Below, in pieces: positions 8,237-22,042 of a stretch of DNA of 51,803 nucleotides. Below the pieces are notes generated by a model. It did no database searches. It was given only the letters and a program-made list of their open reading frames with translations, and was not told where the DNA came from. A program made the translations under genes and the position numbers. The DNA is from Limosilactobacillus avistercoris (GTDB taxonomy: Bacteria > Bacillota > Bacilli > Lactobacillales > Lactobacillaceae): contig NZ_JACSQW010000012.1 of assembly GCF_014836425.1 (NCBI RefSeq), positions 1-51,803 of the forward strand, in the 5' to 3' direction. Position 1 is the first letter of the stretch. Each line of letters begins with the position of its first letter.

Positions 8237-8254
8237 AATGGAGATGACGGGAGT
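8237..8254. repeat. attL core (duplicated 3' end of ssrA)
   Basis: The 18 bases AATGGAGATGACGGGAGT are identical to 22025-22042, the true 3' end of tmRNA on the minus strand. Homology fades after this, so it is the left copy of the integration core. Confidence 0.85.
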
Positions 8255-8301
8255 AATACCCCTAGTCTCCTAAACGCTGTCATATCAACATTCTTATGTT
8301 G

Positions 8302-8334
8302 CTGGGCGTTAGCCATACAACATCTGTACAACAT
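8302..8334. promoter_or_regulatory. Left arm-type integrase sites
   Basis: TACAACAT occurs at 8316-8323 and 8327-8334, 11 bases apart (one helical turn), beside the CTGGGCGT motif at 8302-8309. Matching TACAACAT pairs lie inside the right end (21909 and 21921). They are probably binding sites for the integrase arm-binding domain, with CTGGGCGT for an accessory factor. Confidence 0.6.
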
Positions 8335-9449
8335 TACAAGTTTTCAATGATATTTCCGATTGAATTATCCTTGACCGGGTGTAAATCATTATAAACCTGA
8401 ATGGTAATTGAAGCGTCCTTGTGACCTAAAACTGAAGCAACCTTGTTAACGTTGATTCCTTTATCAATCAGTAGCCCCGTATATGTGTGTCTCAAACCAT
8501 GTGGGGTTACATATAATGGTAGATTATAATTTTCTTCAATTACTTTCAACCATTTACCAGGCTTTGACGGTGATAATATACCGCCCTGCTGACTAGTGAA
8601 TACTAATTGACTTGGTTTCAAAGAATTAACGTTAAAATATTGTAATTCTTTTTGTTGTACCAGTCGCCACTTTTTTAACACTTGAATTGTTTGTTGACCA
8701 ATTGGAACGTTACGAACCGAGTAAATGTTTTTAGTTTTTCCTATTATTAGGTGGTTATCCGTATCACGGGTAACCGCCTTTTTTATTTTCAAAAAGCCAT
8801 GTTCAAAATCTACATTATTCCAGGTTAAGGCCGATAGTTCGCTTTTTCTTAACCCTGTATGTGACAAAACAAAGAGAAATGCAAACGCCTTGTAATTACT
8901 ATCTTTATACTGTTTCCTTAATCCTTGTTGAAACTGATTAAATTCTGCTCTGGTAAATGACCTTATTTTCTTTTTATTATGAACTTTTGGCCGTTCCACT
9001 TGCCTGAACGGATTATCAAAAATCAATTTATATTTAATAGCCAAATCAAAAATACTGGCAGCGTCGTTAATTAGCTTGTTAAAGAACTTTAATTGATTAG
9101 CCCATTGATAAACTAGCAATTGACAGTCATTAACTTTTATTTCTTTAATAGCCCTGTTGCCTAAAGCTGGTAACAAATGATTTTTACATTCAGATTCATA
9201 TTTTCTATAAGTAGAACCTTCAACTGTATGTTTCTTATTATCAAGCCAACGATTAGCTATTTCTTCAAAAGTCACCTGGTCATTATCACTGAAACCGTGA
9301 TTCTCAATTTCAATCATCTTTCGGCGATACCAGGAACGAGCTTCACCTTTTGTAGTAAAGCCGCCCTTGTTATGTTGCTTGTTATCTGGTGTACGGTATG
9401 CAACCCGATAACGTCTACCATTCTTAGTTTGATACTCATATGGTGTCAT
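8334..9449 (-). CDS. int: Tyrosine-type site-specific integrase
   Basis: This is a 371-residue integrase with an N-terminal arm-binding domain (about 1-55), a core-binding domain (about 60-150) and a catalytic domain (165-360). Catalytic residues visible are R201 (HTGLRKSEL), H317 and R320 (HGLRHTY), H343 (LGHKD) and the nucleophile Y353. It recombines the element with the 18-bp core in ssrA. The AAAGGAG before ATG 9449 fixes the start, and the stop lies against the left arm sites. The length and layout are those of Gram-positive phage and island integrases. It faces away from the rest of the element, next to attL, as is usual. Confidence 0.95.
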   Translation of the reverse strand: MTPYEYQTKNGRRYRVAYRTPDNKQHNKGGFTTKGEARSWYRRKMIEIENHGFSDNDQVTFEEIANRWLDNKKHTVEGSTYRKYESECKNHLLPALGNRAIKEIKVNDCQLLVYQWANQLKFFNKLINDAASIFDLAIKYKLIFDNPFRQVERPKVHNKKKIRSFTRAEFNQFQQGLRKQYKDSNYKAFAFLFVLSHTGLRKSELSALTWNNVDFEHGFLKIKKAVTRDTDNHLIIGKTKNIYSVRNVPIGQQTIQVLKKWRLVQQKELQYFNVNSLKPSQLVFTSQQGGILSPSKPGKWLKVIEENYNLPLYVTPHGLRHTYTGLLIDKGINVNKVASVLGHKDASITIQVYNDLHPVKDNSIGNIIENL

Positions 9450-9472
9450 TTTTCATTCTCCTTTATACGTCC

Positions 9473-9518
9473 ATTGTCTGGGCGTGAATTAATGACACGG
9501 GGGATATGTTAGGAGATG
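9473..9518. promoter_or_regulatory. int upstream region: CTGGGCGT site and first copy of a 23-bp direct repeat
   Basis: ATTGTCTGGGCGTG (9473-9486) recurs exactly, inverted, at 21883-21896. A 23-base unit starting CACGGGGGATATGTTAGG (9496-9518) recurs with two changes at 10738-10760. Both lie just outside genes, so they may be binding sites of an element-encoded regulator, such as the AlpA-like protein. Confidence 0.45.
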
Positions 9519-9548
9519 AAAACACTGTGAGTAAATAGTACATTTGCA

Positions 9549-9652
9549 TGGTACCTTGGTACCGCACCCCTTGAGCCTTACAGCCACAAGGGTTTAGCGG
9601 TACCTTTTTACTTTTTGCGGTACCACTTTTGTTTTAAATTGAAAGTGGTACC
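9549..9652. repeat. GGTACC iteron cluster, left set
   Basis: Five GGTACC sites lie at 9550, 9558, 9599, 9619 and 9647. The 18-base core TGGTACCTTGGTACCGCA (9549-9566) is the exact reverse complement of 13857-13874 in the right cluster. A small inverted repeat CCCTTG/CAAGGG (9568-9573 with 9587-9592) lies between the sites. It fills the gap between int and the repressor gene and is a probable replication-initiator or regulator binding region. Confidence 0.7.
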
Positions 9653-9655
9653 TGG

Positions 9656-10288
9656 CTACCTACTTGATTCGGGATCTTTCTTAACAGGAAAGCTAGAAAG
9701 AAATTTATCAATATTAGGAATAATATCGTCTTTATCATACTCAATAGTACCATTAGCGATTTGACGAAACATATTTAACAACGTTGCCATTTCAGAATTT
9801 TGATTATCTGAACCATATAGTCGTACAAGGTTAAAGAAAATTAAAAAATCACTTAAACTATATCCAGATAAAATACTTAATGGCTTCTTATCTATTAATT
9901 CTCCCTGCTGTTCTATTAATTGGCGAATTTCTTCACTAGAATTTTTAGCAAGCCTACTAGTGGTGGCACGGAGATCAAGCTGTGACTCTGCAAGCTTTTT
10001 TTGTTCATCACCAGTTAATTTTTCGCCACCGACAGCTTTATCTAATAATACTTTAGTAGCCATCAAGCTCAAACCGCTACCATTAATAAGGTAATCAACA
10101 GAGACAGAACCGAGATCGGCAATGTATTTTAGTCTCTTGGCACTGGGAAGAGTTTCACCCTTTTCCCAACGTGAAACAGATGACTTATTAACAGGCGGAT
10201 TAAAAGCTAATCCAAAATCAATTTGTGTTTTACCAAGCTTTTCACGCACAGCTTTTATTCTATCACCAATAGCTTTATTACTTTTCAA
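9656..10288 (-). CDS. Cro/CI-type master repressor without a peptidase domain
   Basis: The N-terminal 65 residues form an XRE helix-turn-helix (IGDRIKAVREKLGKTQ, then SSVSRWEKGETLP). The remaining 145 residues match no domain I recognise, and there is no LexA/S24 Ser-Lys peptidase signature, so RecA-driven self-cleavage is unlikely. In PICIs, derepression comes instead from a helper-phage protein that binds the repressor; that fits here but is inference. The start is taken as TTG 10288, 8 bases after GGTGG; an in-frame GTG (10300) overlaps that RBS. It is the first gene left of the divergent switch. Confidence 0.82.
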   Translation of the reverse strand: MKSNKAIGDRIKAVREKLGKTQIDFGLAFNPPVNKSSVSRWEKGETLPSAKRLKYIADLGSVSVDYLINGSGLSLMATKVLLDKAVGGEKLTGDEQKKLAESQLDLRATTSRLAKNSSEEIRQLIEQQGELIDKKPLSILSGYSLSDFLIFFNLVRLYGSDNQNSEMATLLNMFRQIANGTIEYDKDDIIPNIDKFLSSFPVKKDPESSR

Positions 10289-10313
10289 AAATATCACCAC
10301 CCAGAATTAAAAT

Positions 10314-10441
10314 AGTTGCAAAAAAATTGCATTTAATTCTTGACATCATATTATCAGTAATGTATATTAAAGTCAATCAGTTGCATATAGGTTGCACTAA
10401 GCTGATTTTTTATTTGTTATTTAGTTGCATATAAGTTGCTT
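10314..10441. promoter_or_regulatory. Divergent switch: overlapping promoters and TTGCA operators
   Basis: Rightward: TTGACA 10340-10345, 17 bases, TATATT 10363-10368. Leftward: TTGACT 10376-10371, 17 bases, TAATAT 10353-10348. The two promoters face each other and overlap, so only one can be occupied at a time. Operator-like repeats flank them: TGCAA-N5-TTGCA at 10317-10331, AGTTGCATATAGGTTGCAC at 10379-10397, and AGTTGCATATAAGTTGCTT at 10423-10441, with TTGC units about one helical turn apart. The repressor is the obvious binder. Confidence 0.75.
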
Positions 10442-10464
10442 TTATAAGAAAGAAGGTGAAGACT

Positions 10465-10728
10465 ATGGAACAGTTAAAAGTAGAGTTGCCTAAGAATGTT
10501 ACAGACGCTATCACTGCGGCAGTATTTGACAGTTTCAAGCTAGCACAAAAGTCAGCAACTAACGACTGGCCGTTGTACTTATCTAAGAAGCAGGCTTGCC
10601 AGTACCTAAACATTGCTAACCGGACGCTCAATGAGTGGATCGAAACTGGTGACATTCCCTACAAGCACATTGGTAAGACCTACCGCTTCAACCGCAACGA
10701 CTTAGACAAGTTCATGGCTACTAAGTAA
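10465..10728 (+). CDS. AlpA/excisionase-like MerR-type DNA-binding protein
   Basis: The 87 residues end in a helix-turn-helix domain of the excisionase/AlpA type (YLSKKQACQYLNIANRTLNEW, then IPYKHIGKTYRFNRNDLDKFM). Such proteins act as excisionases or as regulators of integrase genes in satellites. ATG 10465 follows AGGTG by 6 bases; an upstream GTG at 10456 lies within that RBS. It is the first gene of the rightward operon, so it would be made on derepression. The repeated CTGGGCGT sites at both ends and before int are candidate targets. Confidence 0.8.
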   Translation: MEQLKVELPKNVTDAITAAVFDSFKLAQKSATNDWPLYLSKKQACQYLNIANRTLNEWIETGDIPYKHIGKTYRFNRNDLDKFMATK

Positions 10729-10737
10729 TCAACCTGG

Positions 10738-10799: not shown

Positions 10800-10879
10800 A
10801 AAAGTAAAGGGTTGAATTGGATAACACAAATAGTTAAATCGTAAAATATTATGGCAATATTTAGAAAGGAAGACCATTG

Positions 10880-11065
10880 ATGATCAAGTTAATTAATTCT
10901 AAGCTTACTGCCCTTCTTATGGGTGGCTGGATTGTTTACTGTCTAACAGTTAAAGCATTTGATGGAGCATTGTTTTTATTAACAATCTACTTACTTGCTT
11001 TATATGAAAATAAAAAAGCCATTAGCAACCTACAAGATCCTACCCGAGTAGCTGCTAATGACTAA
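10880..11065 (+). CDS. Small membrane protein, unknown
   Basis: This is a 61-residue protein with two close hydrophobic stretches (about 9-27 and 31-45) and a polar tail. AAAGGA lies 9 bases before ATG 10880. Its place in the early operon of a satellite makes an accessory role (superinfection or helper interference) conceivable, but no family is recognised. Confidence 0.6.
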   Translation: MIKLINSKLTALLMGGWIVYCLTVKAFDGALFLLTIYLLALYENKKAISNLQDPTRVAAND

Positions 11066-11074
11066 GTTTCATAG

Positions 11075-11177: not shown

Positions 11178-11459
11178 ATGAAAGCAAATATCAATATAAA
11201 CAATCTTGAAGAGACAAGCACGTATTTAAGCATAGTAGAAGGACTAGAACAAGCATTAAGTGATTCACTAGACATGTTATTTAGTCATGTTCCCGATGAA
11301 AAAGAAGAACATTTAAAAACCGTTGATATTTATTCAACTTTTTATGAATTAAGAAGAGATCAGAATAAAATATTTTCTTTAACAGCAGCTACTACGGATG
11401 TGCTTAAAAGAGTTCATAAGACATTAGATACTGAAATTAATAACTACTACATTGAATAA
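11178..11459 (+). CDS. Hypothetical protein of the replication operon
   Basis: This 93-residue, mostly helical, acidic protein has no recognisable domain. AGAAAGGAAAG about 8-15 bases upstream supports ATG 11178. It sits 56 bases before the primase gene, so it may belong to the replication module. Confidence 0.65.
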   Translation: MKANININNLEETSTYLSIVEGLEQALSDSLDMLFSHVPDEKEEHLKTVDIYSTFYELRRDQNKIFSLTAATTDVLKRVHKTLDTEINNYYIE

Positions 11460-11515: not shown

Positions 11516-12343
11516 ATGAATAACACATTCAATGTGGCTCAGAGCCTTTCAAAAAGCGGGATAAAAGTTTATCCACTATCTACTGGTAGCAAGATCCCTG
11601 TTGCTGGTTCACATGGCGAACATGATGCCACCGATGATCTGGATACCATTAAAAGATGGTTCAATTATAACCCTAACTTCAACCTTGCTATTAATCTACA
11701 AGTTAGTGGATTAGCAGTTGTTGACTTGGATAATCATAGCAACGAGACAAACGGTGTTCAGAATTACAGTAAATATATTCGTAATCGTGGTAATGGTTAT
11801 GTTGATACACTGAAAACTTACACGGAATTGACCCCAAGAAATGGGCTTCATATCTTCTACAAACTCAATCATGATTTAGGCAACAAAGATATTCAATTGA
11901 TGCCCGGTGTGGAATTACTAACCGGTAAAGTCACAATTGCCCCTAGTTTCATTGCTAAGTTCAACAAAGGTTATCGAGCAGAATATCAAGGATTTCAGCT
12001 ACTAAGTTATGACAACGTACAACCACTACCAGAATGGATTATTGAACTTGCTGAAGAAGCACAGAAAAGAACTGTTAAACCCGCTACTGTATATGAGAAT
12101 TACCAGCCAGGTCAAAAGAGGTGGACGGGTCATTTACTTGATGACTTGGTGCAAGGTGCTAATGAAGGCGACCGCAATAATTATTTAACCAAGCTAACCG
12201 GTAAAATGTTTCGGGTTGGTGCTGATAGTAAGACAGTCTATAACTTACTATCATTTGCTAACAGTAATTGTGAACCACCCCTACCCGATCATGAAGTTAA
12301 TTCAATTTTTGGTTCGATTCTTAAAAAGAACGGAGGACGTTAA
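11516..12343 (+). CDS. Prim-Pol type primase/polymerase
   Basis: The N-terminal 190 residues resemble bifunctional DNA primase/polymerase domains: KVYPLSTGSKIPV near the start, the metal-binding pair D70 and D72 in VVDLDNH, H112 in NGLHIFYK, and GVELLTGKVTIAPS. The C-terminal part (about 215-275; GANEGDRNNYLTKLTG...) looks like a primase C-terminal domain. AAAGGAGG precedes ATG 11516. With the helicase 3 bases downstream it should initiate and prime element replication, as the Pri/Rep pair does in SaPIs. Confidence 0.9.
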   Translation: MNNTFNVAQSLSKSGIKVYPLSTGSKIPVAGSHGEHDATDDLDTIKRWFNYNPNFNLAINLQVSGLAVVDLDNHSNETNGVQNYSKYIRNRGNGYVDTLKTYTELTPRNGLHIFYKLNHDLGNKDIQLMPGVELLTGKVTIAPSFIAKFNKGYRAEYQGFQLLSYDNVQPLPEWIIELAEEAQKRTVKPATVYENYQPGQKRWTGHLLDDLVQGANEGDRNNYLTKLTGKMFRVGADSKTVYNLLSFANSNCEPPLPDHEVNSIFGSILKKNGGR

Positions 12344-12346
12344 TTA

Positions 12347-13768
12347 ATGCCAGTTAAAGAAATACCAAAAGAATACCAAAATGCAGCGGACAAACGAGAT
12401 GCAGAAATGAAAGAACAAACCAAGAAAGTTACGCCTATTTGGCTATATCGTGACCAAGACGACAAAAAGAAAGTAAATACAGTTTTGTTTGCTAAAACAA
12501 TCATTAAAGAGAACCCAATGGTCAACAATAAGTTTAGTCAAGATGGCTACTGGTACAACAAAAAAACGGGATATTGGTTCACTGACACCGATACCCATTT
12601 AAAGAAGATTATTGTTAACGATTTAATCAAAGCTAATAAGTGGCAGCCGTCACTATATGGCAATGTAAAATTATTAGTTACAGTTATGGCAACTTCAGAG
12701 AATAACGAAAATCCATTTGACCACAGCGACCCTTATTTAGTTAGTTTCAAAAATGGTACATATGACGTCAAGTCTGATGCTATGAAGCCTAATTCAGCGA
12801 ATGATTATATACTACAAGGCCACGACTATAATCTAAATATTAGTGGAAGCGCGCCAATCACTAACAAATGGTTTAAAGAAAGTTTTGGTAGTAGAGAGGC
12901 TGCCAATGTTGTTAAAGCCTATATTGGTTACATGTTTGTACGGACTTATCAAAATTATCAAAAGTTCATGATCCTTCACGGAAAAGGTGGAGACGGTAAG
13001 TCAACTATTCTTAATTATTTACGTTCATTAATTGGAGCAAGCAATACTTCAAACGTAGATTTAGCTGATTTAGTAGATCGTTCCAATGGTAAGTTTTTAA
13101 CTTCAAAGTTATATCAAAAAGACTTAAATTATTTTGCCGATATAGGCGATGGTTTCATGGAACAAACAAGTATTCTGAAGGGCTTAACTGGTGGGGATGC
13201 TATTACTGGTCAGTTCAAAAATAAAGACCCGTTCGAGTTTGTCAACCATGCTAAGTTGATTTTCAGTGCTAATAGTCTACCTGTTTTTAATGACTTCACC
13301 GATGGTTTTATTAGACGACCAATTATCGTAGAGGTTCATAGAATTAAACATTTTACTGATAAATATTCTATGAAAACTATTCAAGCAGAGCGTGGTGCCT
13401 TTGCTTACGAATGCTTAACATTGTTCAAACAATTATTAGATGACAATTACCCAGGCCAATTAGATCAGTGGGGCTTCCCTACTACCGATGAAATGAAGCA
13501 AGCATTACACACTTGGATCATTAACAATGACTTGGTCTCACGTTGGTTAGATGAACGATGTGATACTAGCGACAATACTGCTTTTGAAAAAAATGTATAT
13601 GTATATGATAGTTACAAGCAATTCTGTACTAGTGAAGGCGGCCACCCGTTAGGTAAACAGAAATTCAACGCTAACTTAGAAAAACACGGGATTAATACAA
13701 AAGCTCAGAAAAAAATCGAAGGTAGAAAATATCGAGGTTACAAAGGGATTCGACTACTCAATGATTAA
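12347..13768 (+). CDS. D5/P4-type SF3 helicase (replication initiator)
   Basis: The 473-residue protein has a D5-type N-terminal region, then an SF3 ATPase core: Walker A GKGGDGKST (212-220), B-type motif LNYFADIGD, sensor region LIFSANSLP and arginine finger area FIRRPIIVEV. A C-terminal winged-helix-like part follows (about 375-470), which in related initiators binds origin iterons. GGAGG lies in the end of the primase gene. The gene is directly followed by the right GGTACC cluster, the arrangement found for SaPI Rep and its origin, so binding to GGTACC is a fair inference. Confidence 0.92.
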   Translation: MPVKEIPKEYQNAADKRDAEMKEQTKKVTPIWLYRDQDDKKKVNTVLFAKTIIKENPMVNNKFSQDGYWYNKKTGYWFTDTDTHLKKIIVNDLIKANKWQPSLYGNVKLLVTVMATSENNENPFDHSDPYLVSFKNGTYDVKSDAMKPNSANDYILQGHDYNLNISGSAPITNKWFKESFGSREAANVVKAYIGYMFVRTYQNYQKFMILHGKGGDGKSTILNYLRSLIGASNTSNVDLADLVDRSNGKFLTSKLYQKDLNYFADIGDGFMEQTSILKGLTGGDAITGQFKNKDPFEFVNHAKLIFSANSLPVFNDFTDGFIRRPIIVEVHRIKHFTDKYSMKTIQAERGAFAYECLTLFKQLLDDNYPGQLDQWGFPTTDEMKQALHTWIINNDLVSRWLDERCDTSDNTAFEKNVYVYDSYKQFCTSEGGHPLGKQKFNANLEKHGINTKAQKKIEGRKYRGYKGIRLLND

Positions 13769-13769: not shown

Positions 13770-13872
13770 GGTACCATTTTTACCCCTAAAACAAAAACGG
13801 TACCAATAAAAATAAAACGGTACCAATAAACGTTGATATATCAAGGGTTACAGTGTGCGGTACCAAGGTACC
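13770..13872. repeat. GGTACC iteron cluster, right set; candidate replication origin
   Basis: GGTACC sites lie at 13770, 13799, 13819, 13859 and 13867. Two are in a shared context ACGGTACCAATAAA, and TGCGGTACCAAGGTACCA (13857-13874) mirrors the left cluster exactly. An AT-rich middle with the palindrome TTGATATATCAA (13833-13844) could be an unwinding element. The cluster lies directly after the helicase gene. Origin function is inferred from position and iteron structure. Confidence 0.65.
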
Positions 13873-13921: not shown

Positions 13922-14191
13922 ATGCCAGTATTAAATCAAGGCAAGAAAAAAATACCACTGCAAAAACTAGCAGTAGTAAGGTTATCAATGGCAGATGGTC
14001 AAGTAATATATAGCGATGGTCAAGCATATGTTGGCGTGCAAGGCAATAAAACCTTTTTAGCTAAGGAATTTAAAAACCAAGTTAACGACATTCTTAAATA
14101 TGATGGCAATACGCTAATCAATCCTAAACAATGTGTATGTGCTAGACCAATGATGAAATTAGTTGATATGAACCCAGGAGATGATAAGTGA
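13922..14191 (+). CDS. Hypothetical small protein
   Basis: The 89-residue protein begins MPVLNQGKKK and ends in a possible metal-binding C-x-C pair (CVCARP). AGAAAGGAA before ATG 13922 supports the start. No family is recognised. It overlaps the region before the next small gene and starts the second rightward gene group, after the origin. Confidence 0.6.
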   Translation: MPVLNQGKKKIPLQKLAVVRLSMADGQVIYSDGQAYVGVQGNKTFLAKEFKNQVNDILKYDGNTLINPKQCVCARPMMKLVDMNPGDDK

Positions 14192-14193
14192 TA

Positions 14194-14358
14194 ATGAAAG
14201 TTAAAATAATCCACCAATACAGAGACCGTCCGATTGATCTATCAATCAATGATTTTATAAAGGATAAAGAAGTAATAGATATTAAATATTCTATGTGTGC
14301 TTATGGTGAAGATTCTTTTGATTCGGCTTTAGTAATTTACAAGGATAGTGATAATTGA
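14194..14358 (+). CDS. Cse60-like small protein
   Basis: A 54-residue ORF with ATG 14194 and a TGA overlapping the next ATG at 14358. It starts MKVKIIHQY and contains VIDIKYSMC followed by ALVIYKD, the pattern of the Cse60 family of small proteins, named from sporulation but common in Firmicute phages. The role in phages is unknown. It follows the preceding gene by 2 bases, so it is probably translationally coupled. Confidence 0.65.
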   Translation: MKVKIIHQYRDRPIDLSINDFIKDKEVIDIKYSMCAYGEDSFDSALVIYKDSDN

Positions 14359-14708
14359 TGCTTAATTATGATATTACACGAATGAAACAACGTGTTGAGT
14401 TTGGTACCTATGACTATGTATCAGATGATTCGTTGGAAGGTGGTCATGAAACTTTCAAGCCACTAACTACCGTTTGGTGTGGAGAATACACCAATACCCA
14501 GACCCAAACATTTGATAATCTAGGAACACACGTCAACGCTGATTTAGTATTGGCAATTAGACACAATCCAGATGTTAATAAGAAACTAAGTGCTAAGTAC
14601 AAAGATCATGAATACAAGATTATTGCTATCAACAGCGATGACAGACTTAATGCCTTTGACCTTATTACTTTGCAAGATAAAAGTGGAGTAAGTAATAACA
14701 ATCAATGA
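14358..14708 (+). CDS. Head-closure / head-tail joining protein
   Basis: The 116 residues fit the SPP1 gp16-type head-tail joining family: MLNYDITRMKQRVEFGTYD, then a beta-rich body with TVWCGEYTNT and the ending DHEYKIIAIN...DLITLQ. Such proteins form a ring under the portal and connector and receive the tail. TGATG couples it to the previous gene. Its position before HNH, rather than after the connector as in most HK97-like phages, is unusual. Confidence 0.75.
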   Translation: MLNYDITRMKQRVEFGTYDYVSDDSLEGGHETFKPLTTVWCGEYTNTQTQTFDNLGTHVNADLVLAIRHNPDVNKKLSAKYKDHEYKIIAINSDDRLNAFDLITLQDKSGVSNNNQ

Positions 14709-14713
14709 TTAGA

Positions 14714-14740
14714 GGTGTCGTAATATGCGACACCCTTTTT
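14714..14740 (+). terminator. Terminator before the HNH gene
   Basis: GGTGTCG (14714-14720) pairs with CGACACC (14728-14734), followed by TTTTT. It lies in the 47 bases between the head-closure stop and the HNH start, just before the HNH RBS. Confidence 0.75.
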
Positions 14741-14755
14741 ATTAGGAGGCAAGTA

Positions 14756-15190
14756 ATGAAACCTAGACACTTATGTAATTATCCTGGTTGTAATGAATTA
14801 ATACCGTACGACCAGAGCTATTGCAGTAAACACGAATATAAGAAACCGATAGATAGAACTAACAAGCAGCAACGACACCAATTAAATAAGGCTATCTATC
14901 ATAAGCGAATTACTAGCAAGCATGAAGGTAAGTACCAACGTTTCTATCGTTCGACAGCATGGAAGAAGCTAAGCCACCATTGGTTAATGATGCACCCGTT
15001 GTGTGTTAACTGTGAAGCACACGGAATATATCGCAAAGGTGATCTGGTAGACCATATCATTGAACTAAGAGACGACTGGAGCAAGCGACTAGATACAGAC
15101 AATCTACAAACATTATGCTATGCTTGTCACAACAGAAAGACAAGGCAAGCTAAATATAGGAGACAACAACATGAAAGACAAATGGAATAG
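14756..15190 (+). CDS. HNH endonuclease of the packaging module
   Basis: This 144-residue protein carries zinc-binding pairs CNYPGC and CVNC, the HNH core VDHIIELRDD, then DNLQTLCYACHNRK. In HK97-type cos phages and in cos-using satellites an HNH protein next to terS/terL is needed for cohesive-end cleavage by terminase. AGGAGG before ATG 14756 fixes the start; the reading frame further upstream crosses a terminator and is not used. The gene precedes terS with one small gene between. Confidence 0.9.
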   Translation: MKPRHLCNYPGCNELIPYDQSYCSKHEYKKPIDRTNKQQRHQLNKAIYHKRITSKHEGKYQRFYRSTAWKKLSHHWLMMHPLCVNCEAHGIYRKGDLVDHIIELRDDWSKRLDTDNLQTLCYACHNRKTRQAKYRRQQHERQME

Positions 15191-15353
15191 GTTCAAAGAT
15201 AGCAACTGGTTTGTAGTTATATTCTTTTTGATTGTACTTTTAATTGGATTTATATTTGCCTATTGGATAGTCTTCAAGTTACACCTATTGTTACTAGTTA
15301 TGTTTATCTTCTTGCTTTGGCTGCTAGTGAAGTTTATTGAATTGCTATTCTAA
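15171..15353 (+). CDS. Small two-helix membrane protein
   Basis: The 60 residues begin MKDKWNRFKDSNW and are otherwise almost wholly hydrophobic, with two likely membrane helices (about 13-32 and 35-55). The gene overlaps the HNH end by 20 bases, and TAGGAG lies 8 bases before ATG 15171. The size and position could fit a holin-like or immunity peptide, but nothing identifies it. Confidence 0.55.
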   Translation: MKDKWNRFKDSNWFVVIFFLIVLLIGFIFAYWIVFKLHLLLLVMFIFLLWLLVKFIELLF

Positions 15354-15497: not shown

Positions 15498-15713
15498 CGA
15501 ACATTATCAATAATAAATAGTATATTGTTCGTACTTTACACTATTTATGTTTTTTTCTTAACATTCAGTCAAAATATATAAGTATTGTTCGCAAATTAGC
15601 TAATATTAACTTGCCTTTTTGAGCTAAAAAGGGTATAATGTTCGTATAATAAAGATTACTGGGTATAAATAGCCATTAGATGTTCGTCTATTGGCTATTT
15701 TTTATATAACTAA
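15498..15713 (+). promoter_or_regulatory. Late control region: five TGTTCG sites, promoter and attenuator
   Basis: TGTTCG occurs inverted at 15498-15503 and direct at 15526, 15586, 15639 and 15681. The promoter is TTGCCT (15611-15616), 17 bases, TATAAT (15634-15639), and the fourth site touches its -10. In the leader, 15667-15680 pairs with 15687-15700 around the loop TGTTCG and is followed by six T, an intrinsic attenuator 26 bases before the terS start. Probably the switch that turns on packaging and capsid genes; the ArpU-like protein or a helper factor may bind. Confidence 0.7.
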
Positions 15714-15725: not shown

Positions 15726-16214
15726 ATGGCTGGAGCAAAAATTAAACCAGTAGAAAAGTTAAGAGGCCACTGGACGAAAGATCAGTTAGCAGATCGTGAA
15801 GAAGTCCAGAATAACCTTAAAAAAAACTATGATTCAATTGATGAAACAGTGCCCGAAGAGTTACACGGTTACGCCCGTAAGGAATGGCAAAAGATCGTGC
15901 CCCTGCTCAAAAAGGAAACACCAGCAAGCAACCTAGACCGTAGCCAATTAATTAATTACTGTGTCCTAGCACAGACAGTCCACACCTGCCAAAAGTATAT
16001 CCTTCAAGATGGCTTGTGTGTCATGACTTCGCAAGGCACTAAGAAGATCAATCCATACTTCAATATGCAAGACAAGGCCATTAAGAATATGCGTGCCATT
16101 GCTAGTGACTTCGGACTGAACATTAGCAGCCGGGCCAAGTTAGAGAACCAGAAGGTAAAGCAACAAGACCCCGAAGACCCGTTTGCTGCCTTCTTAGAAG
16201 ATGATGCCGGGTGA
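15726..16214 (+). CDS. Terminase small subunit (P27 family)
   Basis: A 162-residue DNA-recognition subunit of the packaging motor, of the P27-type TerS family (LRGHWTKDQLADRE, PEELHGYARKEWQKIVP, and the C-terminal SDFGLNISSRAKL). AAGGTGG lies about 8 bases before ATG 15726, and the stop overlaps the terL start (GTGA). In the cf-PICI model this element-specific TerS makes packaging selective for satellite DNA over helper DNA. Confidence 0.92.
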   Translation: MAGAKIKPVEKLRGHWTKDQLADREEVQNNLKKNYDSIDETVPEELHGYARKEWQKIVPLLKKETPASNLDRSQLINYCVLAQTVHTCQKYILQDGLCVMTSQGTKKINPYFNMQDKAIKNMRAIASDFGLNISSRAKLENQKVKQQDPEDPFAAFLEDDAG

Positions 16215-17911
16215 TTAAATACGTTGATGATGTATTATCTGGCAAGATCGTAGCTGGCAAGAAGATACGCCTAGCCTGTGAACGCTACAAGCGTGATTTA
16301 GAGCGTTCAAAGAGTGACGACTTCCCCTTCTACTATGATGAAAAGATGGCACGTAAAGCCTGCCAGTTCGTCCAGATGTTGCCATTAACCGATGGTGGAA
16401 AGTTTCACTTAGCAGAATACCAAGAATGGATTGTAAGCGAGTTATACGGCTGGCGAGTTAAGGAAACGGGAGAACGGCGTTATACACAGGGTATGGTATC
16501 AATGGCCCGTAAGTCTGGTAAAACTTACCTAGCTGCTTCCCTGGCCGCTATTGGCTTGATGATGGAAAACAAACCGGCTAAGAACCGCCAAGTCCTATTC
16601 GTCTCAAATGCACTGAAACAAGCTAAGCTGGGGTACAATATGCTTTCGAGTAGTCTTAGACAGGTTCAAAAGACTAGCCGTCTAGTCCGTCACCGAGTTA
16701 AGGTGCAAAAAGAACGGATTACTGATCTACCTACCGATAGTTTTGCTACGGCCCTAGCTAGTGACACCAATACACTTGATGGTTACGCCGGGACAACGAT
16801 TATCCTAGACGAATACGCCGCCGCCAAAGATCGCAAGGTATATGATGTTTTGAAGTCTGGACAAGCCCAGGAGCCTAACAGTCTGCTATTGATTATTTCA
16901 ACCAGTGGCCTAGATTTGAATGTTCCTATGTACACTGAATATAAGATGTTAAGCGATGTGTTAGCTGGTAAGAAGCAAGCAGATCGCTATTTTATTGCTA
17001 TCTGGGAGCTGGACGACCGTAAAGAAGTTACTAATCCTAAAACCTGGATTAAAGCTAATCCTATCTTTGAAATTCCAGCAATTAAGAAGCGTATGCAACC
17101 TAAAATTCAAGATGATGTGGATTTAGGAATAGCGCAAGATGATTTAATACCAGTCTTAACTAAAAACTTTAATATGTGGCTTCAAGCTGCCGATGATTCC
17201 TATATTAGTGTGGACGACTGGGATAAAACCGAAATAGATGCCCCCGACACCACCGGACGTGATGTCTATATTGGCGTGGATATGAGTAAGACCAACGACT
17301 TAACGGTGATTAGTTGGGTAGTTCCAATTGATGGCCGTTTTTACGTGGATTCTCATTCGTGGGTAGGCACTAAGTATGGTTTAGATCGCAAGATTAAGTT
17401 AGACGGCTTCAATTACCGGGCTGGTGAGAAGCGTGGTGAGTGTTCTATCACTACCCTAGAAAGTGGCGTAATTGATACCGATGATGTGTTCAGTTACCTA
17501 GTTAATCTAAGCAATAAGAACCACTGGAAACCGATTATCTGTTATGACCCCTATAACTTCAATGATATTTTAACCAAGATTGAAAAACAGATGCCTAACT
17601 GGGATATGCGAGCCGTAAGACAAGGTAGTTTGACGCTCAATGTTCCTACCCGTGATTTTAGAGACAAGCTGTTTCAAAAGAAGATCATTCATGGCAATAA
17701 CAAATTGCTTCGCTACTCAATGATTAATGCCCGGATCAAAGAAGATAACAACGGCTGGCAACTACAAAAGAAAAGCCGTAACTCTAACAGCCGGATTGAC
17801 CCGGCGGCTGCCCTTATGAATGCTTATGTATTCGCCCGTTCTTACTTTGATGACCAGGAAAAGAGTAAGACGCTCAATGACTTCTATTCCAGTTCAGAGT
17901 TTTTGCAATGA
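16211..17911 (+). CDS. Terminase large subunit (ATPase and nuclease)
   Basis: This 566-residue motor protein has Walker A ARKSGKT (about 99-105), Walker B TIILDEYAA (about 196-204) and a C-terminal RNase H-like nuclease beginning DVYIGVDMSKTND (D357). It is of the HK97/P27 type that pairs with HNH proteins. GTG 16211 overlaps the terS stop. It cuts concatemers and pumps DNA into the prohead through the portal encoded downstream. SaPIs of the classic kind lack their own TerL, so its presence marks the capsid-forming class. Confidence 0.95.
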   Translation: MIKYVDDVLSGKIVAGKKIRLACERYKRDLERSKSDDFPFYYDEKMARKACQFVQMLPLTDGGKFHLAEYQEWIVSELYGWRVKETGERRYTQGMVSMARKSGKTYLAASLAAIGLMMENKPAKNRQVLFVSNALKQAKLGYNMLSSSLRQVQKTSRLVRHRVKVQKERITDLPTDSFATALASDTNTLDGYAGTTIILDEYAAAKDRKVYDVLKSGQAQEPNSLLLIISTSGLDLNVPMYTEYKMLSDVLAGKKQADRYFIAIWELDDRKEVTNPKTWIKANPIFEIPAIKKRMQPKIQDDVDLGIAQDDLIPVLTKNFNMWLQAADDSYISVDDWDKTEIDAPDTTGRDVYIGVDMSKTNDLTVISWVVPIDGRFYVDSHSWVGTKYGLDRKIKLDGFNYRAGEKRGECSITTLESGVIDTDDVFSYLVNLSNKNHWKPIICYDPYNFNDILTKIEKQMPNWDMRAVRQGSLTLNVPTRDFRDKLFQKKIIHGNNKLLRYSMINARIKEDNNGWQLQKKSRNSNSRIDPAAALMNAYVFARSYFDDQEKSKTLNDFYSSSEFLQ

Positions 17912-17929
17912 AAGGTGGTGAGATTTTTA

Positions 17930-19063
17930 ATGAGTTTGTTTGATAACTGGTTTAGTAAGAATACGACTACAACCAATCATGACCCGTTTCTTGATGCGTT
18001 GGTTAGCATTTCAAGTGACGACCCCTATGCCTATGTATCACCATCAAACTTGCGCAATAGCGATGTTTTTACGGCAATCAACATTATTGCCAGTGACATT
18101 GCTTCAAACCCTGTTCTGTGTGATACGGACGTAATCAATAAAGAGATTAACAGTAGCCCGAACGACACGATGGACGGTTTCCATTTCAAATTCGCTCTGG
18201 CCGCTAATATGCTACTGAATGGTAATTCGTTTGCTGAAATACTGCCTAACCATAACTTGCGGTTTATTCCTAACAATCAAATGACCGTAAGCCAAGACAC
18301 CATTACCGGGCGGTTAAAGTATACCTACTCACCTAACGGGAAAATTAAGCGAGTGATTCCACCGAACAAGGTGCTGCACTTCAAATATTTCACCCTTGAC
18401 GGTGTATCTGGATTAAGCCCCCTGTATGCGTTGAAAGATGAGCTAGGAGTACAAAACGCTGGCAACAAGCTACTACTTAACTTCTTTAACAATGGGATTC
18501 ACGGTACAACGGTGGTCAAGGTCAATCAAGCTGATCTAAACCCCGAAAGCATTAAAAACATTCGTAAGAAGTTCGATGATGCTAATTCCGGGCCTAACTC
18601 AATGAAAACCGTTGTGGTAGATGATTCTATGGACGTTAGCAACCTGTCACTCAATACAGACGTACTTAAACTGGTCAACTCTAACGACTGGACGACAAGA
18701 CAGATTGCCAAGGCGTTTGGTCTGCCCGTTGAGCGGTTAGGGCTTGAAAACGAGCATAGCAACCAGCAACAAAGTAACCTGCAATACTTACAAAGTACCC
18801 TGCAACACTACTTTGATTGTTTTACAAGTGAACTATCGAAGAAGTTTGGTAAGGACTTTACCTTTAATACCGACAAGCTGCTAAGCCTTGATCCTGCTAC
18901 CATTCAACAGCAAGCAATTGACGGCTATAATAACGGCTTGCTGACCAGGAATGAAGCCCGTAGCAAGTTAGGGTTGCCACCGACTAGCGATGGTGACAGC
19001 TTTAACGATGATTCAGAGAAAGGAATGAATGAAAATAATGGAAGATCGCCGATTAACGATTAA
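17930..19063 (+). CDS. HK97-family portal protein
   Basis: This 377-residue portal shows the family pattern: SDVFTAINIIASDIAS near the N terminus, the wing/stem region with LLLNFFNNG, and the clip and tail end RQIAKAFGLPVERLG followed by NLQYLQSTLQHYF. Twelve copies form the DNA channel at one vertex. ATG 17930 follows AAAGGTGG by 11 bases; GTG codons overlapping the RBS are less likely. It is slightly shorter than typical phage portals (about 400 residues). The last 35 bases overlap the protease-capsid gene. Confidence 0.92.
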   Translation: MSLFDNWFSKNTTTTNHDPFLDALVSISSDDPYAYVSPSNLRNSDVFTAINIIASDIASNPVLCDTDVINKEINSSPNDTMDGFHFKFALAANMLLNGNSFAEILPNHNLRFIPNNQMTVSQDTITGRLKYTYSPNGKIKRVIPPNKVLHFKYFTLDGVSGLSPLYALKDELGVQNAGNKLLLNFFNNGIHGTTVVKVNQADLNPESIKNIRKKFDDANSGPNSMKTVVVDDSMDVSNLSLNTDVLKLVNSNDWTTRQIAKAFGLPVERLGLENEHSNQQQSNLQYLQSTLQHYFDCFTSELSKKFGKDFTFNTDKLLSLDPATIQQQAIDGYNNGLLTRNEARSKLGLPPTSDGDSFNDDSEKGMNENNGRSPIND

Positions 19064-20597
19064 CGCTGAATTGCGAGCAGCAGAACCGACCCCACAGCCG
19101 ACTGCACAGCCCACTGACAGCGATAAGCAGGATAAGACAGATAATTCACCACAACCTGCTAAAACGGCCCAGAACAGCCCGAAGAAGCTCTCCGGTTATG
19201 CGATTGTTTGGAATACTCCTAGCAAGGATTTAGGGGGCTTCAAAGAAGTTGTTTCACCGGACGCTCTTAAAGGCGTTGACCTGTCTAATGTATTAATGCT
19301 CAATGACCATGACTATACACAAGTTCTGGCAAGTGTTAAGGCTGGCACCTTAAAGCTAACTCCAGATGATAAGGGGCTGCACTTCGATGCCACCCTGCCA
19401 GACACTACTACCGCCAACGATGTATTCGCCAATGTTAAGGCTGGCAACTTAGACAGTTGCTCATTCAGTTTTGATGTGGACGATGGTTCCGACAAGTGGG
19501 AAAAGGACGACCAGGGGAATATCACCCGGACTATCAATCAGATTAAAGACCTGTTTGATGTATCTGTGGTGGCCGTGCCTGCTTATGATTCAACCAACGT
19601 AGATGCCGACAATTCAGACAACCAAAATGTAAATGTTAATACACGTTCCTATGAAAAGTTTATCAAGGGGGAAAACAAGAAGATGACTGAAAAGACTATT
19701 ATTGATAACAACGAAAAGACTGAAACCCGTAGCTTTGAAGACTTTATTCGCTCTCACGGTGAAATGCGAGACGGTTTGAAAACTTCCGGTGCTACTGCCG
19801 TAATTCCACAAGAAGTTGTAACGCCTGTCTTAGAGTTAAAGAACAGCAAGTATAATCTGGCTCAATACGCTACTGTTAAGACCGTTTCTGCTGGTTCCGG
19901 TCACTACCCAATCGCTAAGCGCAACAATAAGGCGGTCCTTGCTACGAAGGAAGAATTGGCCGACATTGCGGACGTTGACGCTAATATGTTTAAAGACGTG
20001 CCGTTTGATGTGAAGACCCGTGCTGGTAAGATTGCCCTATCAAACGAAATCGTAGAAGATGCTGCCGTTGATATTGTGGCTGAAGTTAAGAACCAACTGC
20101 AAAAGCTGGTTGACAACACCGATAATCAAAACATTATGAAGGTGCTGACCAGTGACACGTTCAAGAAGGAAACTGCTACTGCCACCGATGATTTAAAGAA
20201 GATCTTCAACGTTGAATTAGACCCTGCCTTAAACAAGATGTGGTTAGTCAACCAGTCTGGATTTAACTACCTGGATACTTTGAAGGACAGCGAAGGCCGT
20301 TACCTGCTGCAACCTAACCCAACCGCTGCTAGTGGTTTCTCACTGTTTGGTGCCCCAGTGGTAGTGATTAGTGATGCGGTTATGCCTAACAATGCTGACG
20401 GTTCATTCCCGATGATTGCTGGTGACATTTCCGAAGCCGTTGCCGTTTTCCGGCGATCACAATTACTCGCCCAGTGGGATAAGTTCGATCAATTTGCACA
20501 AGGTTTATCTGTCATTGTTCGTTCTGATTATGAACCTATTTCAAGTGACGCTGCTATTAACGTCTCACTTTCCGCTACCAAGCCTGCTGGCAAGTAG
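19029..20597 (+). CDS. Prohead protease fused to the major capsid protein
   Basis: The 522 residues join two HK97-type head proteins. Residues about 52-200 form a prohead protease (GYAIVWNTPSKDLGG, catalytic H94 in NDHDYTQVL, Ser near 143 in SCSFSFDV, ending LFDVSVVAVPAY). From about 219 to 515 comes the major capsid protein (MTEKTIID... then GSGHYPIAKRN, KIALSNEIVEDA, FGAPVVVISDAVMP). Residues 18-52 form a Pro/Thr/Gln-rich linker. An internal ATG (19683) preceded by AAGGGGG could make free capsid protein; otherwise the protease must cut itself off. The start is ATG 19029; ATG 19038 is an alternative. Confidence 0.92.
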   Translation: MKIMEDRRLTINAELRAAEPTPQPTAQPTDSDKQDKTDNSPQPAKTAQNSPKKLSGYAIVWNTPSKDLGGFKEVVSPDALKGVDLSNVLMLNDHDYTQVLASVKAGTLKLTPDDKGLHFDATLPDTTTANDVFANVKAGNLDSCSFSFDVDDGSDKWEKDDQGNITRTINQIKDLFDVSVVAVPAYDSTNVDADNSDNQNVNVNTRSYEKFIKGENKKMTEKTIIDNNEKTETRSFEDFIRSHGEMRDGLKTSGATAVIPQEVVTPVLELKNSKYNLAQYATVKTVSAGSGHYPIAKRNNKAVLATKEELADIADVDANMFKDVPFDVKTRAGKIALSNEIVEDAAVDIVAEVKNQLQKLVDNTDNQNIMKVLTSDTFKKETATATDDLKKIFNVELDPALNKMWLVNQSGFNYLDTLKDSEGRYLLQPNPTAASGFSLFGAPVVVISDAVMPNNADGSFPMIAGDISEAVAVFRRSQLLAQWDKFDQFAQGLSVIVRSDYEPISSDAAINVSLSATKPAGK

Positions 20598-20624
20598 CCA
20601 ATAATATAGTAACAGTCAATTCAA

Positions 20625-20667
20625 AGAGCCTACCTATTCGTTATGAGTGGGTAGGCTCTTATTTTGT
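20625..20667 (+). terminator. Terminator after the capsid gene
   Basis: AAGAGCCTACC (20625-20635) pairs with GGTAGGCTCTT (20651-20661), followed by ATTTTG. It lies between capsid and connector and may lower connector transcription relative to capsid. Confidence 0.78.
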
Positions 20668-20682
20668 TAGGAGTGATATAAA

Positions 20683-20985
20683 ATGACAGATACAATAAAC
20701 AATCAACCCGAAATCAGTGTTGACACCATCAAAGACGCTTTGAGAATTGATGGTAATGAAGATGATGTATTGATTCAAAGCTATATTAATACTGCCAAGA
20801 ATTATGTAGCCAGTGCTATTGTTGATAGCCAGCCTAATGATGAATTAACCAAAAATACTAAATATCGTTTGGCAGTAATTATCTTAGTTCAGTTCTGGTA
20901 TAGCAACCGCACAACTGATATGAAGAAGACACCATACCAAGTTCGCTCACTGATTCAACAATTACGTGGTGAATATTGGCAGTAA
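20683..20985 (+). CDS. Head-tail connector (gp6-like)
   Basis: The 100-residue helical protein follows the gp6/gp15 adaptor pattern: VDTIKDALRIDGNEDDVLIQSYI, then AKNYVASAI and LAVIILVQFWYSNR. It forms the ring below the portal that accepts the head-closure protein (14358) and then a tail, which must come from a helper. TTAGGAGTG precedes ATG 20683. Confidence 0.85.
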   Translation: MTDTINNQPEISVDTIKDALRIDGNEDDVLIQSYINTAKNYVASAIVDSQPNDELTKNTKYRLAVIILVQFWYSNRTTDMKKTPYQVRSLIQQLRGEYWQ

Positions 20986-21003
20986 TTCATTAAACGAATA
21001 ATA

Positions 21004-21100: not shown

Positions 21101-21206
21101 TCTTTGTTCAATGATGTAGTTGTTTATGTTGAAACAAGCAACCAGATTTTACAAACATCATTTGACTTTGTTAATCGATTTTTTCATCTACTAATAAAAT
21201 AGCTGA

Positions 21207-21284
21207 AGTTACAGAGCTTTGCTCACCAGGCAACTGGCAGAGTTGTACGTAACTATTAAGGCGTCGTTAATTGCGACGCTTTTC
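21207..21284 (+). ncRNA. Compact structured RNA with GNRA loop, ending in a terminator
   Basis: AGTTAC (21207-21212) pairs with GTAACT (21249-21254). Inside lie GAGC-TTT-GCTC (21214-21224) and CCAG-GCAA-CTGG (21226-21237, a GNRA tetraloop), giving a small multi-branch fold. A terminator follows: GCGTCG/CGACGC (21261-21266 with 21274-21279) plus TTTTC. Fold followed by terminator, 40 bases before a gene, is the layout of a leader control element. It matches no class I can name. Confidence 0.4.
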
Positions 21285-21322
21285 TTATATACCCAGTAAT
21301 CACATTAAAGGTGGTTACAATT

Positions 21323-21739
21323 ATGCGAAAAGATATTAAAAAGATACGTCAAGTATTAAAAGACTATGCACAATTAAAAAAGGATCTAGCACTAATCAAT
21401 GCACGTAATACACTGATTAGTAGTCCTTCATTTGAAGGTGTTAGTTCTCACAGCAATACTAATCATACTGAAATTAAATTCGTCAATCACGCTGATTTAA
21501 ACTGGCGATTACACCACGTGGAAGAAGCAATTAACAATATTGAAGATTCTAAATACCGATTTATTATTAATAAGTACATAATCAACAAAAAGTACAATCG
21601 TCAAGAACTATGTGACCGATACAATATTGGCTTGCGAAGCTTTAACAGTATGAAAAATCGTGCATTAGTTGAATTTGCCAAAAATTATGGTATGGATCAG
21701 CTCTTAGATGAAATGAAAAAGCCACAGGTGTATGATTGA
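21323..21739 (+). CDS. ArpU/RinA-like late transcription regulator
   Basis: This 138-residue protein has an N-terminal helical region (KKIRQVLKDYAQLKKDLALINAR) and a C-terminal sigma-like helix-turn-helix (YIINKKYNRQELCDRYNIGLRSFNSMKNRALVEFA), the pattern of phage ArpU regulators that turn on late genes. AAAGGTGG 8 bases upstream fixes ATG 21323. Normally such genes precede terS; here it is the last gene before attR. The TGTTCG sites before terS are its most likely targets. Confidence 0.75.
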   Translation: MRKDIKKIRQVLKDYAQLKKDLALINARNTLISSPSFEGVSSHSNTNHTEIKFVNHADLNWRLHHVEEAINNIEDSKYRFIINKYIINKKYNRQELCDRYNIGLRSFNSMKNRALVEFAKNYGMDQLLDEMKKPQVYD

Positions 21740-21749
21740 TTATCTTATG

Positions 21750-21833
21750 TTGACTAGCAGGCCAATGATTGGTACAATGAATCTTGTCGTTATTTTTATC
21801 TCAAGGGCGCTCTCACAGTAGAGCGCCTTTTTT
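21750..21833 (+). ncRNA. Promoter-terminator cassette near attR (candidate ~50-nt RNA)
   Basis: TTGACT (21750-21755), exactly 17 bases, TACAAT (21773-21778) form a strong promoter. The transcript from about 21785 meets an intrinsic terminator at 21806-21827 (GGCGCTC/GAGCGCC) plus TTTTTT. No ORF of note lies between. It may encode a small RNA, or guard the junction from read-through. Confidence 0.5.
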
Positions 21834-21852
21834 ATTACACTAAATTTAAAAT

Positions 21853-21881
21853 AAAAAAACCATCACGTTTTGTTGTGATGG
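21853..21881 (-). terminator. Leftward terminator supplied by the element after tmRNA
   Basis: Read leftward, CCATCAC (21881-21875) pairs with GTGATGG (21866-21860), followed by seven T. The only transcript coming this way is tmRNA, whose gene ends 146 bases upstream, so this hairpin replaces the native terminator that the insertion moved away. Confidence 0.7.
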
Positions 21882-21882
21882 C

Positions 21883-21964
21883 CACGCCCAGACAATATTT
21901 AATTTCTATACAACATTTCATACAACATTTATTTGCAATTCAATGCTATTTATTGAAAGTTGTA
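21883..21964. promoter_or_regulatory. Right arm-type integrase sites
   Basis: TACAACAT at 21909-21916 and 21921-21928 (12 bases apart), inverted TACAAC at 21964-21959, and the inverted CTGGGCGT motif at 21883-21896. They mirror the left end and are likely contacts for integrase and its accessory factor. Confidence 0.6.
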
Positions 21965-22024
21965 TTTCTCAAAGCCTTATTATATCGGCGTTTTGAAGTT
22001 GCTTACTACTCAATGCAACCCCAC

Positions 22025-22042
22025 AATGGAGATGACGGGAGT
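22025..22042. repeat. attR core within the 3' end of ssrA
   Basis: The 18 bases are identical to 8237-8254. Integration rebuilt a full tmRNA 3' end here, with the acceptor stem and T-arm on this side. Confidence 0.88.

Follow-up and report, generated by a model that had tools for sequence, protein, structure and literature searches.

Is a 13.8 kb set of phage genes that lies at the tmRNA gene of a lactobacillus, and that includes head and packaging genes and no tail genes, what is left of a prophage, or is it a mobile element in working order? The question is raised by positions 8237–22042 of contig C3 of a draft Limosilactobacillus genome (1.80 Mb); the window analysed here is this whole contig, 51,803 nucleotides. 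The positions are occupied by an intact integrative element of 13.8 kb, and the element is very likely an intact capsid-forming phage satellite that resembles the capsid-forming phage-inducible chromosomal islands (cf-PICIs), a reading proposed in the original prediction and supported by the gene set and the borders. cf-PICIs average 14 kb and have lactobacilli among their hosts (PMC10803314, partial text), and one has been predicted in Pseudolactococcus (PMC13335696, partial text). In layout the element is therefore a member of a kind already known; the original prediction had overstated the rarity of such hosts, lactobacilli being listed already. The new part is a predicted RNA of 58 nucleotides (nt) upstream of the small terminase gene (terS) that would pair with the start region of a distal ArpU-like gene. 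Literature searches, confined to open-licence papers and to the portions of text available from them, turned up no precedent for such ArpU/antisense control.

Integration at the tmRNA gene

The borders of the element are given by an 18 bp core, AATGGAGATGACGGGAGT, with identical copies at 8237 and 22025, as had been noted beforehand. The outer ends of the repeats enclose 13,806 bp, which fits the size near 14 kb expected of a cf-PICI.

8237..8254, + strand: attL core, 18 bp (exact direct repeat search)
22025..22042, + strand: attR core, the 3' end of the tmRNA gene (exact direct repeat and tmRNA call)
22027..22398, − strand: tmRNA gene (ssrA), attachment site, intact (tmRNA call; Rfam E 6e-76)

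Between 7501 and 23000 no other sequence of 14 bp or longer is repeated exactly, in direct orientation, at a distance of 9 kb or more. The right copy forms the 3' end of the tmRNA gene, and the gene stays complete despite the insertion. An integrase and flanking repeats, the signs of site-specific integration in a cf-PICI, are thus both present. A tmRNA match was obtained in 44 of 50 genomes of the genus, and the tmRNA loci of 29 relatives were inspected for an empty site; in 15 of the 29 the tmRNA 3' end adjoins the response-regulator gene that is the left neighbour of the element, and five of these 15 junctions, read base by base (L053, L054, L055, L058 and L061), contain neither the element nor a second core. 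The same site is occupied in Limosilactobacillus viscerum (L088), with the same core at 2120 and 16118, and in L167, with a core of 16 nt at 1998 and 16097; in both the tmRNA stands at the right end, and their integrases are 82% identical to that of the element.

Two further tmRNA loci carry traces of their own. In L082 (genome G006, 447–3213) approximately 2.7 kb without an integrase match separates the tmRNA from the response regulator and includes a 188 bp stretch 72% like the right end of the element; it is probably the relic of a lost element. At G022:C62:40646-40671 the tmRNA 3' end is duplicated 1 kb from the gene, perhaps as the scar of another integration.

Head and packaging genes

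The 18 proteins of the element were scanned with Pfam and PHROGs. The head and packaging genes, the late activator and the signals between them are as follows (ORF, open reading frame).

14355..14708, + strand: head closure protein Hc1, placed before the HNH gene (Phage_HCP PF05521, phrog_25)
14705..15190, + strand: HNH endonuclease (PF01844)
15120..15353, + strand: short ORF, hydrophobic by eye, no family, conserved in L034 and L035
15409..15450, + strand: G+C-rich conserved block between the HNH gene and terS, candidate cos region (alignments)
15726..16214, + strand: small terminase subunit TerS (PF05119, Terminase_4)
16211..17911, + strand: large terminase subunit TerL (PF20441, PF03354)
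17915..19063, + strand: portal (PF04860)
19029..20597, + strand: S78 protease fused to an HK97-type capsid (PF04586, PF05065)
20624..20660, + strand: terminator-like hairpin, 17 pairs, between the capsid and adaptor genes (hairpin scan)
20683..20985, + strand: head–tail adaptor Ad1, gp6-like (PF05135, phrog_40)
21258..21282, + strand: terminator-like hairpin in the activator leader (hairpin scan)
21323..21739, + strand: ArpU-like late transcription activator, distal; alternative GTG start at 21311 (phrog_248 E 1e-19)

The series of HNH, TerS, TerL, portal, protease/capsid and connector genes named in the original prediction is confirmed by Pfam and PHROGs, and a terminase, portal, capsid and head–tail connector of its own are what sets a cf-PICI apart; a classical PICI lacks a capsid and uses or remodels helper heads, whereas the element possesses both capsid and portal. 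The tail and lysis genes are absent as predicted: no tail, holin or lysin family was found among the 18 proteins, and a panel of 28 tail and lysis proteins, several of them named from size and place only, gave no tail match in the window. A tail and lysis module, or its remains, as expected of a prophage, is accordingly not seen. The far end does hold the ArpU-like gene that had been placed there, by its match to the phrog_248 activator; its Pfam match (E 0.0095) is below the cut-off, and the top fold matches of its structural model (mean pLDDT 74.5), to sigma region 4 domains, are not significant (E ~1).

The fusion of protease and capsid was rejected as a hallmark of satellites, since L104, L110, L111 and L151, which lie outside the satellite group, are also fused. 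The strong hairpin at 20624–20660 may set the ratio of capsid to adaptor expression.

A family of tailless elements

All genes of the element have prophage ancestry, and a rival account sees in it a prophage, deleted or in decay, from which tail and lysis genes happened to be lost. A true remnant does exist in the same genome, on contig C33; a relative, R23.1, has been scored as an 'incomplete' prophage (PMC10219966, partial text); and some members of the family are reduced, L314 and L322 having no terminase match. The layout of relatives bears directly on this account. A tail survey covered 170 loci, namely 159 from TerL scans, ten further loci and the element itself, which were classed by TerL identity as at least 50% (96 loci, including the element and some duplicate records), 39–50% (six loci, with actual values of 41–42%) and lower (68 loci). 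Tail-panel matches were found in none of the 96; 52 of these have at least 6 kb downstream, and an ORF of at least 700 amino acids (aa) occurs there in none of the 52. Tail matches appear in five of the six loci of the middle class, the exception (L039) showing the satellite layout. In the lower class 54 of 68 loci have 6 kb, and among these a long ORF (31 loci) is commoner than a tail match (26 loci), which shows that some phages escape the panel. When 396 genomes of the family were searched for the capsid, 160 gave a match, and the 34 loci around the better matches, among which are some short contigs, some repeats of elements already counted and a few reduced members, are likewise without a tail-panel match. 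The full-length relatives at two different attachment sites, L034 and L035 at tRNA-Ser and L088 and L167 at tmRNA, have 13.9–14.2 kb between repeats and no tail matches. Tail or lysis remnants at the same site in close relatives had been named in advance as the sign of a deleted prophage; L088 and L167 show none.

A TerL tree was made with 56 rows (60 were given and four short ones dropped); in it, 30 satellite-labelled rows stand on one side of a single branch with SH-aLRT 99. The method was a quick one without bootstrap and gave long-branch warnings, L317 and L039 being among the rows concerned, and the 26 other rows of the tree were labelled 'phage' by the analyst, tails not being confirmed for each. 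cf-PICIs form branches of their own in phage trees (PMC11389934, partial text), and in the TerL tree, the only one made, the family does the same. The ratio of nonsynonymous to synonymous change (dN/dS) between the element and those of genomes G041 and G018, for which some synonymous distances are saturated, is 0.03–0.06 for terL and portal, 0.05–0.08 for protease–capsid, 0.06–0.13 for the adaptor, 0.05–0.23 for head closure and activator and, as far as it could be measured, 0.04 for terS. Judged by these ratios, the head genes are under purifying selection.

The surroundings of the head genes vary more freely. In G041 the terS–terL–portal–capsid block is 91–98% identical and is accompanied by a different integrase, helicase and attachment site; in the core head block of G041 and G018 identities are 98% for terL, 94% for portal and 91–95% for capsid. 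G041 has another D5-type protein and G018 an NrS-1-type polymerase domain with a VapE-type protein, their integrases also differ, and both elements lie at a tRNA-Ser gene with a 14 bp repeat. An exchange of modules around a head block that stays conserved would be expected of a living satellite family, and within this family the element at 8237–22042 is not unusual. A one-off deleted prophage was rejected on the family-wide layout, the selection and the TerL tree. In its general form, too, the loss of tails by decay is extremely unlikely, given intact reading frames under purifying selection, a tailless layout common to the near relatives tested, a single branch in the TerL tree and consistent ends at two different attachment sites.

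The published cf-PICIs (PMC11389934, PMC10803314, partial texts) share with the element a size of about 14 kb, a capsid of their own that makes helper heads unnecessary and integration at specific sites. The element differs from them in its tmRNA attachment, its distal ArpU-like activator and its predicted antisense RNA; the likeness is judged by layout.

Several relatives have peculiarities of their own. In L039 (genome G033) portal and capsid are 63–66% and TerL only 41% identical, perhaps owing to an old terminase swap. In L255 a tRNA-Asn gene called by ARAGORN (11213–11286, − strand) lies inside the satellite, between the capsid and adaptor genes. In the IMG/VR records G050 and G053 (loci L252–L257) a satellite adjoins a full siphoprophage, from which it is separated by tRNA-Gln and tRNA-Glu genes and by the prophage attachment repeat CCGTGCGGGTGATAAGT; two neighbouring attachment sites yield one record of 57–59 kb, and a distal tail protein (Dit) match is present in four of the six long records of this kind. 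For the two records that were mapped, integration of satellite and prophage in tandem at a single site was rejected, as they use neighbouring tRNA genes.

Particles and the source of tails

Two Lacticaseibacillus 'phages', R23.1 (OP869847) and JB1P3 (PV668529), resemble the element in their size of 14.1–14.5 kb, in having no annotated tail genes and in the same head set, with TerL 51%, portal 53–54% and protease–capsid 55–56% identical; they differ in a head closure gene placed after the adaptor, in showing no ArpU-like match and in other iterons and integrase. Both records (OP869847.1, L032; PV668529.1, L033), deposited as L. rhamnosus phages, are very probably satellites of the family of the element. 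R23.1 is a circular record of 14,518 bp from mitomycin-C induced L. rhamnosus LMG 23277, covered 333x as against 114x for R23.9, a 41.6 kb phage of the same strain; its tail, holin and lysin genes were noted as absent, and the words 'satellite' and 'PICI' occur nowhere in the text of that paper (PMC10219966). We infer that R23.1 is a packaged relative of the element, with the reservation that its DNA may have been free.

Head and packaging genes of its own, and the recovery of R23.1 in a particle preparation (PMC10219966, partial text), would also suit an autonomous, very small phage or a maker of particles of the gene-transfer-agent type that borrows no tails. That account is very unlikely: there are no tail, holin or lysin genes, the attachment site, terminase and replication genes fit the packaging of the element's own DNA, and the host of R23.1 also released a 41.6 kb phage (PMC10219966, partial text).

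Given a tail-borrowing satellite, a helper can be sought. One siphoprophage was found in the genome of the element, on contig C44, where the only Sipho_tail (Dit) match of the genome lies; PHROGs identify Dit, a major tail protein and an endolysin there, next to a presumed tape measure of 1477 aa, and PhageMin_Tail has no match in the genome. Matching connectors, which the original prediction had proposed to look for in a resident siphoprophage, were not found, the neck PHROG families of C44 differing from the head closure of the satellite; the C44 prophage stays a candidate helper only. A better guess for the tail donor is offered by phages like LFP01 of Limosilactobacillus fermentum, whose genes run Ad1 (phrog_40), Hc1 (phrog_25), neck (phrog_5), tail terminator and major tail protein, because the satellite supplies exactly the first two of this order. 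A resident helper is not required, since in one published case none of the 17 prophages resident in the strain mobilized its cf-PICI at detectable frequency (PMC11389934, partial text).

Four observations weigh against the satellite interpretation. The isolation section for R23.1 describes precipitation with polyethylene glycol and mentions no DNase, so that free DNA is possible (PMC10219966, partial text). The C44 prophage has an SPP1-type portal with phrog_132 and phrog_348 neck proteins, a neck type other than that of the satellite. No phrog_25 protein besides the satellite's own was found in the genome. Lastly, no transcript, excision, particle or transfer has been observed for this element.

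If the satellite interpretation is right, many 14 kb 'prophage remnants' of food and gut lactobacilli may be working satellites, and the family would offer a lactobacillus model for the matching of heads to foreign tails; R23.1 and R23.9, released by one strain, form a ready test pair. The genome of the element also holds, at C33:3300–9000 (L037), the prophage remnant referred to above, whose TerL has an internal stop and which by eye contains inserted transposase genes, in contrast with the intact element.

A predicted antisense RNA and a possible late switch

Upstream of terS a short transcription unit is predicted, the 5' end of which is complementary to the activator leader (sRNA, small RNA).

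15611..15639, + strand: promoter-like TTGCCT-17-TATAAT of the predicted sRNA (10 of 12 matches; six-element alignment)
15646..15703, + strand: predicted 58-nt sRNA, with an unpaired seed at 15654–15667 and a terminator hairpin (fold z −4.1)
21288..21301, + strand: sRNA target TATACCCAGTAATC, directly before the ribosome-binding site (complementarity to the seed)

In six aligned elements the region before terS hardly varies: TTGCC(T/C) is followed after 17 bases by TATAAT, replaced in L166 by TAAAAT, and then come a short leader, a hairpin and its T run, and terS itself. The RNA at 15646–15703 folds into a free 5' end of 21 nt and a terminator (z −4.1). Its seed, GATTACTGGGTATA, is the exact reverse complement of 21288–21301 at the ArpU-like gene, 5.6 kb away, and the exact 14-mer occurs in only these two places in the 1.8 Mb genome. 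Most other satellites have a different sequence at both places, which is again complementary. From 82 two-gene loci, 70 remained after identical pairs, short upstream regions and L116 had been dropped, and the register of pairing was fixed by seed and target motifs, which no locus of the 70 failed. Contiguous pairing over 14–17 positions is found in all 70 distinct loci, which form 27 distinct rows; 93.5% of the cells in these rows are paired, versus 15–57% when the strands are slid. Changes on both sides occur in seven of 16 pairs (shuffle mean 2.3; 0 of 500 as high), and the 11 core positions comprise 243 Watson–Crick cells, 54 wobble cells and no others. When seeds of one group are set against targets of the other there is no match, the longest runs being 9, or 4–6. 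The activator start is the best duplex partner among ORF starts in 69 of the 70 loci.

Loci outside this set were compared as well. Of nine ArpU-bearing loci from further scans six pair over 16–20 nt, though at least some of these elements are already among the 70; two are unpaired and one lacks the region. A hairpin stands close before terS in 10 of 11 ArpU-bearing loci with an upstream region, and in the remaining one, L301, a hairpin is visible by eye, its T run interrupted; of 15 loci without an ArpU-like gene, seven have none and eight a weaker or more distant one. The full phages C44 and LFP01, which bear phrog_248, and Javan367, in which the gene is presumed, gave chance-level matches only, and Rfam has no family for the predicted RNA, the best matches being far below gathering scores.

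Complementary segments might instead be binding sites of one protein, perhaps of the activator itself, rather than pairing RNAs. The activators diverge along with the segments, with 37–50% identity between the two groups, and both promoters could carry sites of this sort. Against this, the segments have the antisense orientation in the 70 loci, and all 54 non-Watson–Crick cells of the core are G–U wobbles, with not a single A–C; the copy before terS follows the −10 box and belongs to a 58-nt unit closed by a terminator, and the copy before the activator gene is found at the ribosome-binding site. Protein sites are on balance an unlikely explanation, if one to be taken seriously. That the segments flank the head operon in inverted orientation would also permit them to join within one long late mRNA or to act as recombination sites that invert the operon. 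Both variants are quite improbable: a terminator follows the seed, with further terminator-like hairpins at 20624 and 21258, the wobble differences speak against a recombination site, and no second recombinase was found among the 18 scanned proteins.

We lean slightly towards a pairing RNA, and propose that in a lineage of Lactobacillaceae satellites a terminated, trans-acting antisense RNA of about 58–73 nt from the terS promoter silences the late activator, that read-through from the same promoter feeds the head genes, and that this RNA-based switch between silent and late states co-evolves with its target. In the element, the promoter-like sequence just upstream of terS is predicted to make a 58-nt RNA ending at the terminator; the 5' seed would pair with the ribosome-binding region of the distal activator, most likely blocking its translation, and the head genes would be kept off as long as the RNA is not outrun by activator mRNA. 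The repressive sign is our inference.

Other observations count against the RNA. Promoter-like sites in the element number 47 against 43 expected from shuffles, which is not above chance, and by a strict scan most of the more distant loci have no such promoter. Measured against every plus-strand window, the activator start is the best partner in no more than 45 of the 70 loci, and pairing of this kind is missing from two ArpU-bearing elements that are more distant, L300 and L301. The loci are moreover related and represent few independent lineages; for this reason, and because complementarity guided the choice of register, the counts overstate independence.

The CI RNA of satellite P4 works through premature termination of transcription within its own leader, that of the replication operon, and its part in immunity was reportedly described by Sabbattini in 1995 and Briani in 2000. 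The likeness lies in a short satellite-encoded RNA pairing with a leader of the same element, here predicted from complementarity; the target differs, being the start region, with the ribosome-binding site, of a late activator 5.6 kb away, and the elements are unrelated. If the RNA is real, a capsid-making satellite would have a conserved antisense switch that bears comparison with P4 immunity and has a separate origin. IsrK of the prophage Gifsy-1 is alike in being made by termination, with read-through into the following genes, and in being tied to a late regulator (PMC4825925, partial text); it activates, whereas the predicted RNA most likely represses, and no sequence relation is claimed.

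The sequence TGTTCG is present in five copies within 190 bp upstream of terS (15498–15686), reaching into the predicted RNA, and the repeats may be activator sites. They occur in four of the six aligned elements, with similar spacing in G041, G018 and L166, two copies in L167 and none there in L088; in the whole window TGTTCG is not enriched (28 versus 22 expected). A late-activator site common with the C44 prophage was rejected, no TGTTCG cluster being seen before the C44 terS.

Control and replication genes

The left and middle part of the element contains the following features.

8334..9449, − strand: tyrosine integrase (PF00589 E 2e-24, PF14659)
9550..9652, no strand: iteron cluster A, five GGTACC (motif count)
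9656..10300, − strand: HTH_3 repressor (Pfam)
10315..10439, + strand: three operator-like repeats GTTGCANANANRTTGC at 10315, 10380 and 10424, between the divergent repressor and excisionase genes
10456..10728, + strand: HTH_17 excisionase/AlpA-like protein (PF12728; phrog_668, phrog_66)
10877..11065, + strand: small ORF, function unassigned (phrog_19314)
11178..11459, + strand: small ORF, no Pfam or PHROG assignment
11516..12343, + strand: Prim-Pol primase/polymerase with PriCT_1 (Pfam)
12347..13768, + strand: D5-type helicase (DUF5906, D5_N, Pox_D5; Pfam)
13770..13872, no strand: iteron cluster B, five GGTACC, candidate replication origin (motif count)
13922..14358, + strand: two small ORFs, 89 and 56 aa, function unassigned (Pfam, PHROGs)

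cf-PICIs carry an AlpA/excisionase-type regulator and a primase/replication module, and Pfam and PHROGs place both in the element. The divergence of integrase and repressor from the operon, and the pair of Prim-Pol and D5 helicase, were correctly described in the original prediction: integrase and HTH_3 repressor are on the minus strand and the rest of the genes on the plus strand, and Pfam recognizes both replication proteins. The HTH_17 protein, the three operator-like repeats and the two iteron clusters are additions to it.

If the satellite is functional, the repressor would keep it silent until a helper phage relieves repression. An S24 (LexA-type) peptidase domain is not among the Pfam matches of the repressor, and control by SOS cleavage is for this reason unlikely. 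Integrase and excisionase would then excise the satellite, Prim-Pol and D5 would replicate it from the GGTACC iterons, and its own HNH–terminase would cut the DNA and package the 13.8 kb unit into small heads of its own. These heads would be closed by its adaptor and head-closure proteins, with neck, tail and lysis provided by the helper.

The operator-like repeats number three against 0.19 expected, and one of 100 shuffles reached as many, with a pattern derived from the same three sites that were then counted. Of the 11 GGTACC copies in the element, all but one fall within the two clusters at 9550–9652 and 13770–13872. In R23.1 and JB1P3 repeat arrays of different sequence lie directly 3' of the helicase genes; since iterons follow the helicase in all three elements, this spot is the likely origin of replication.

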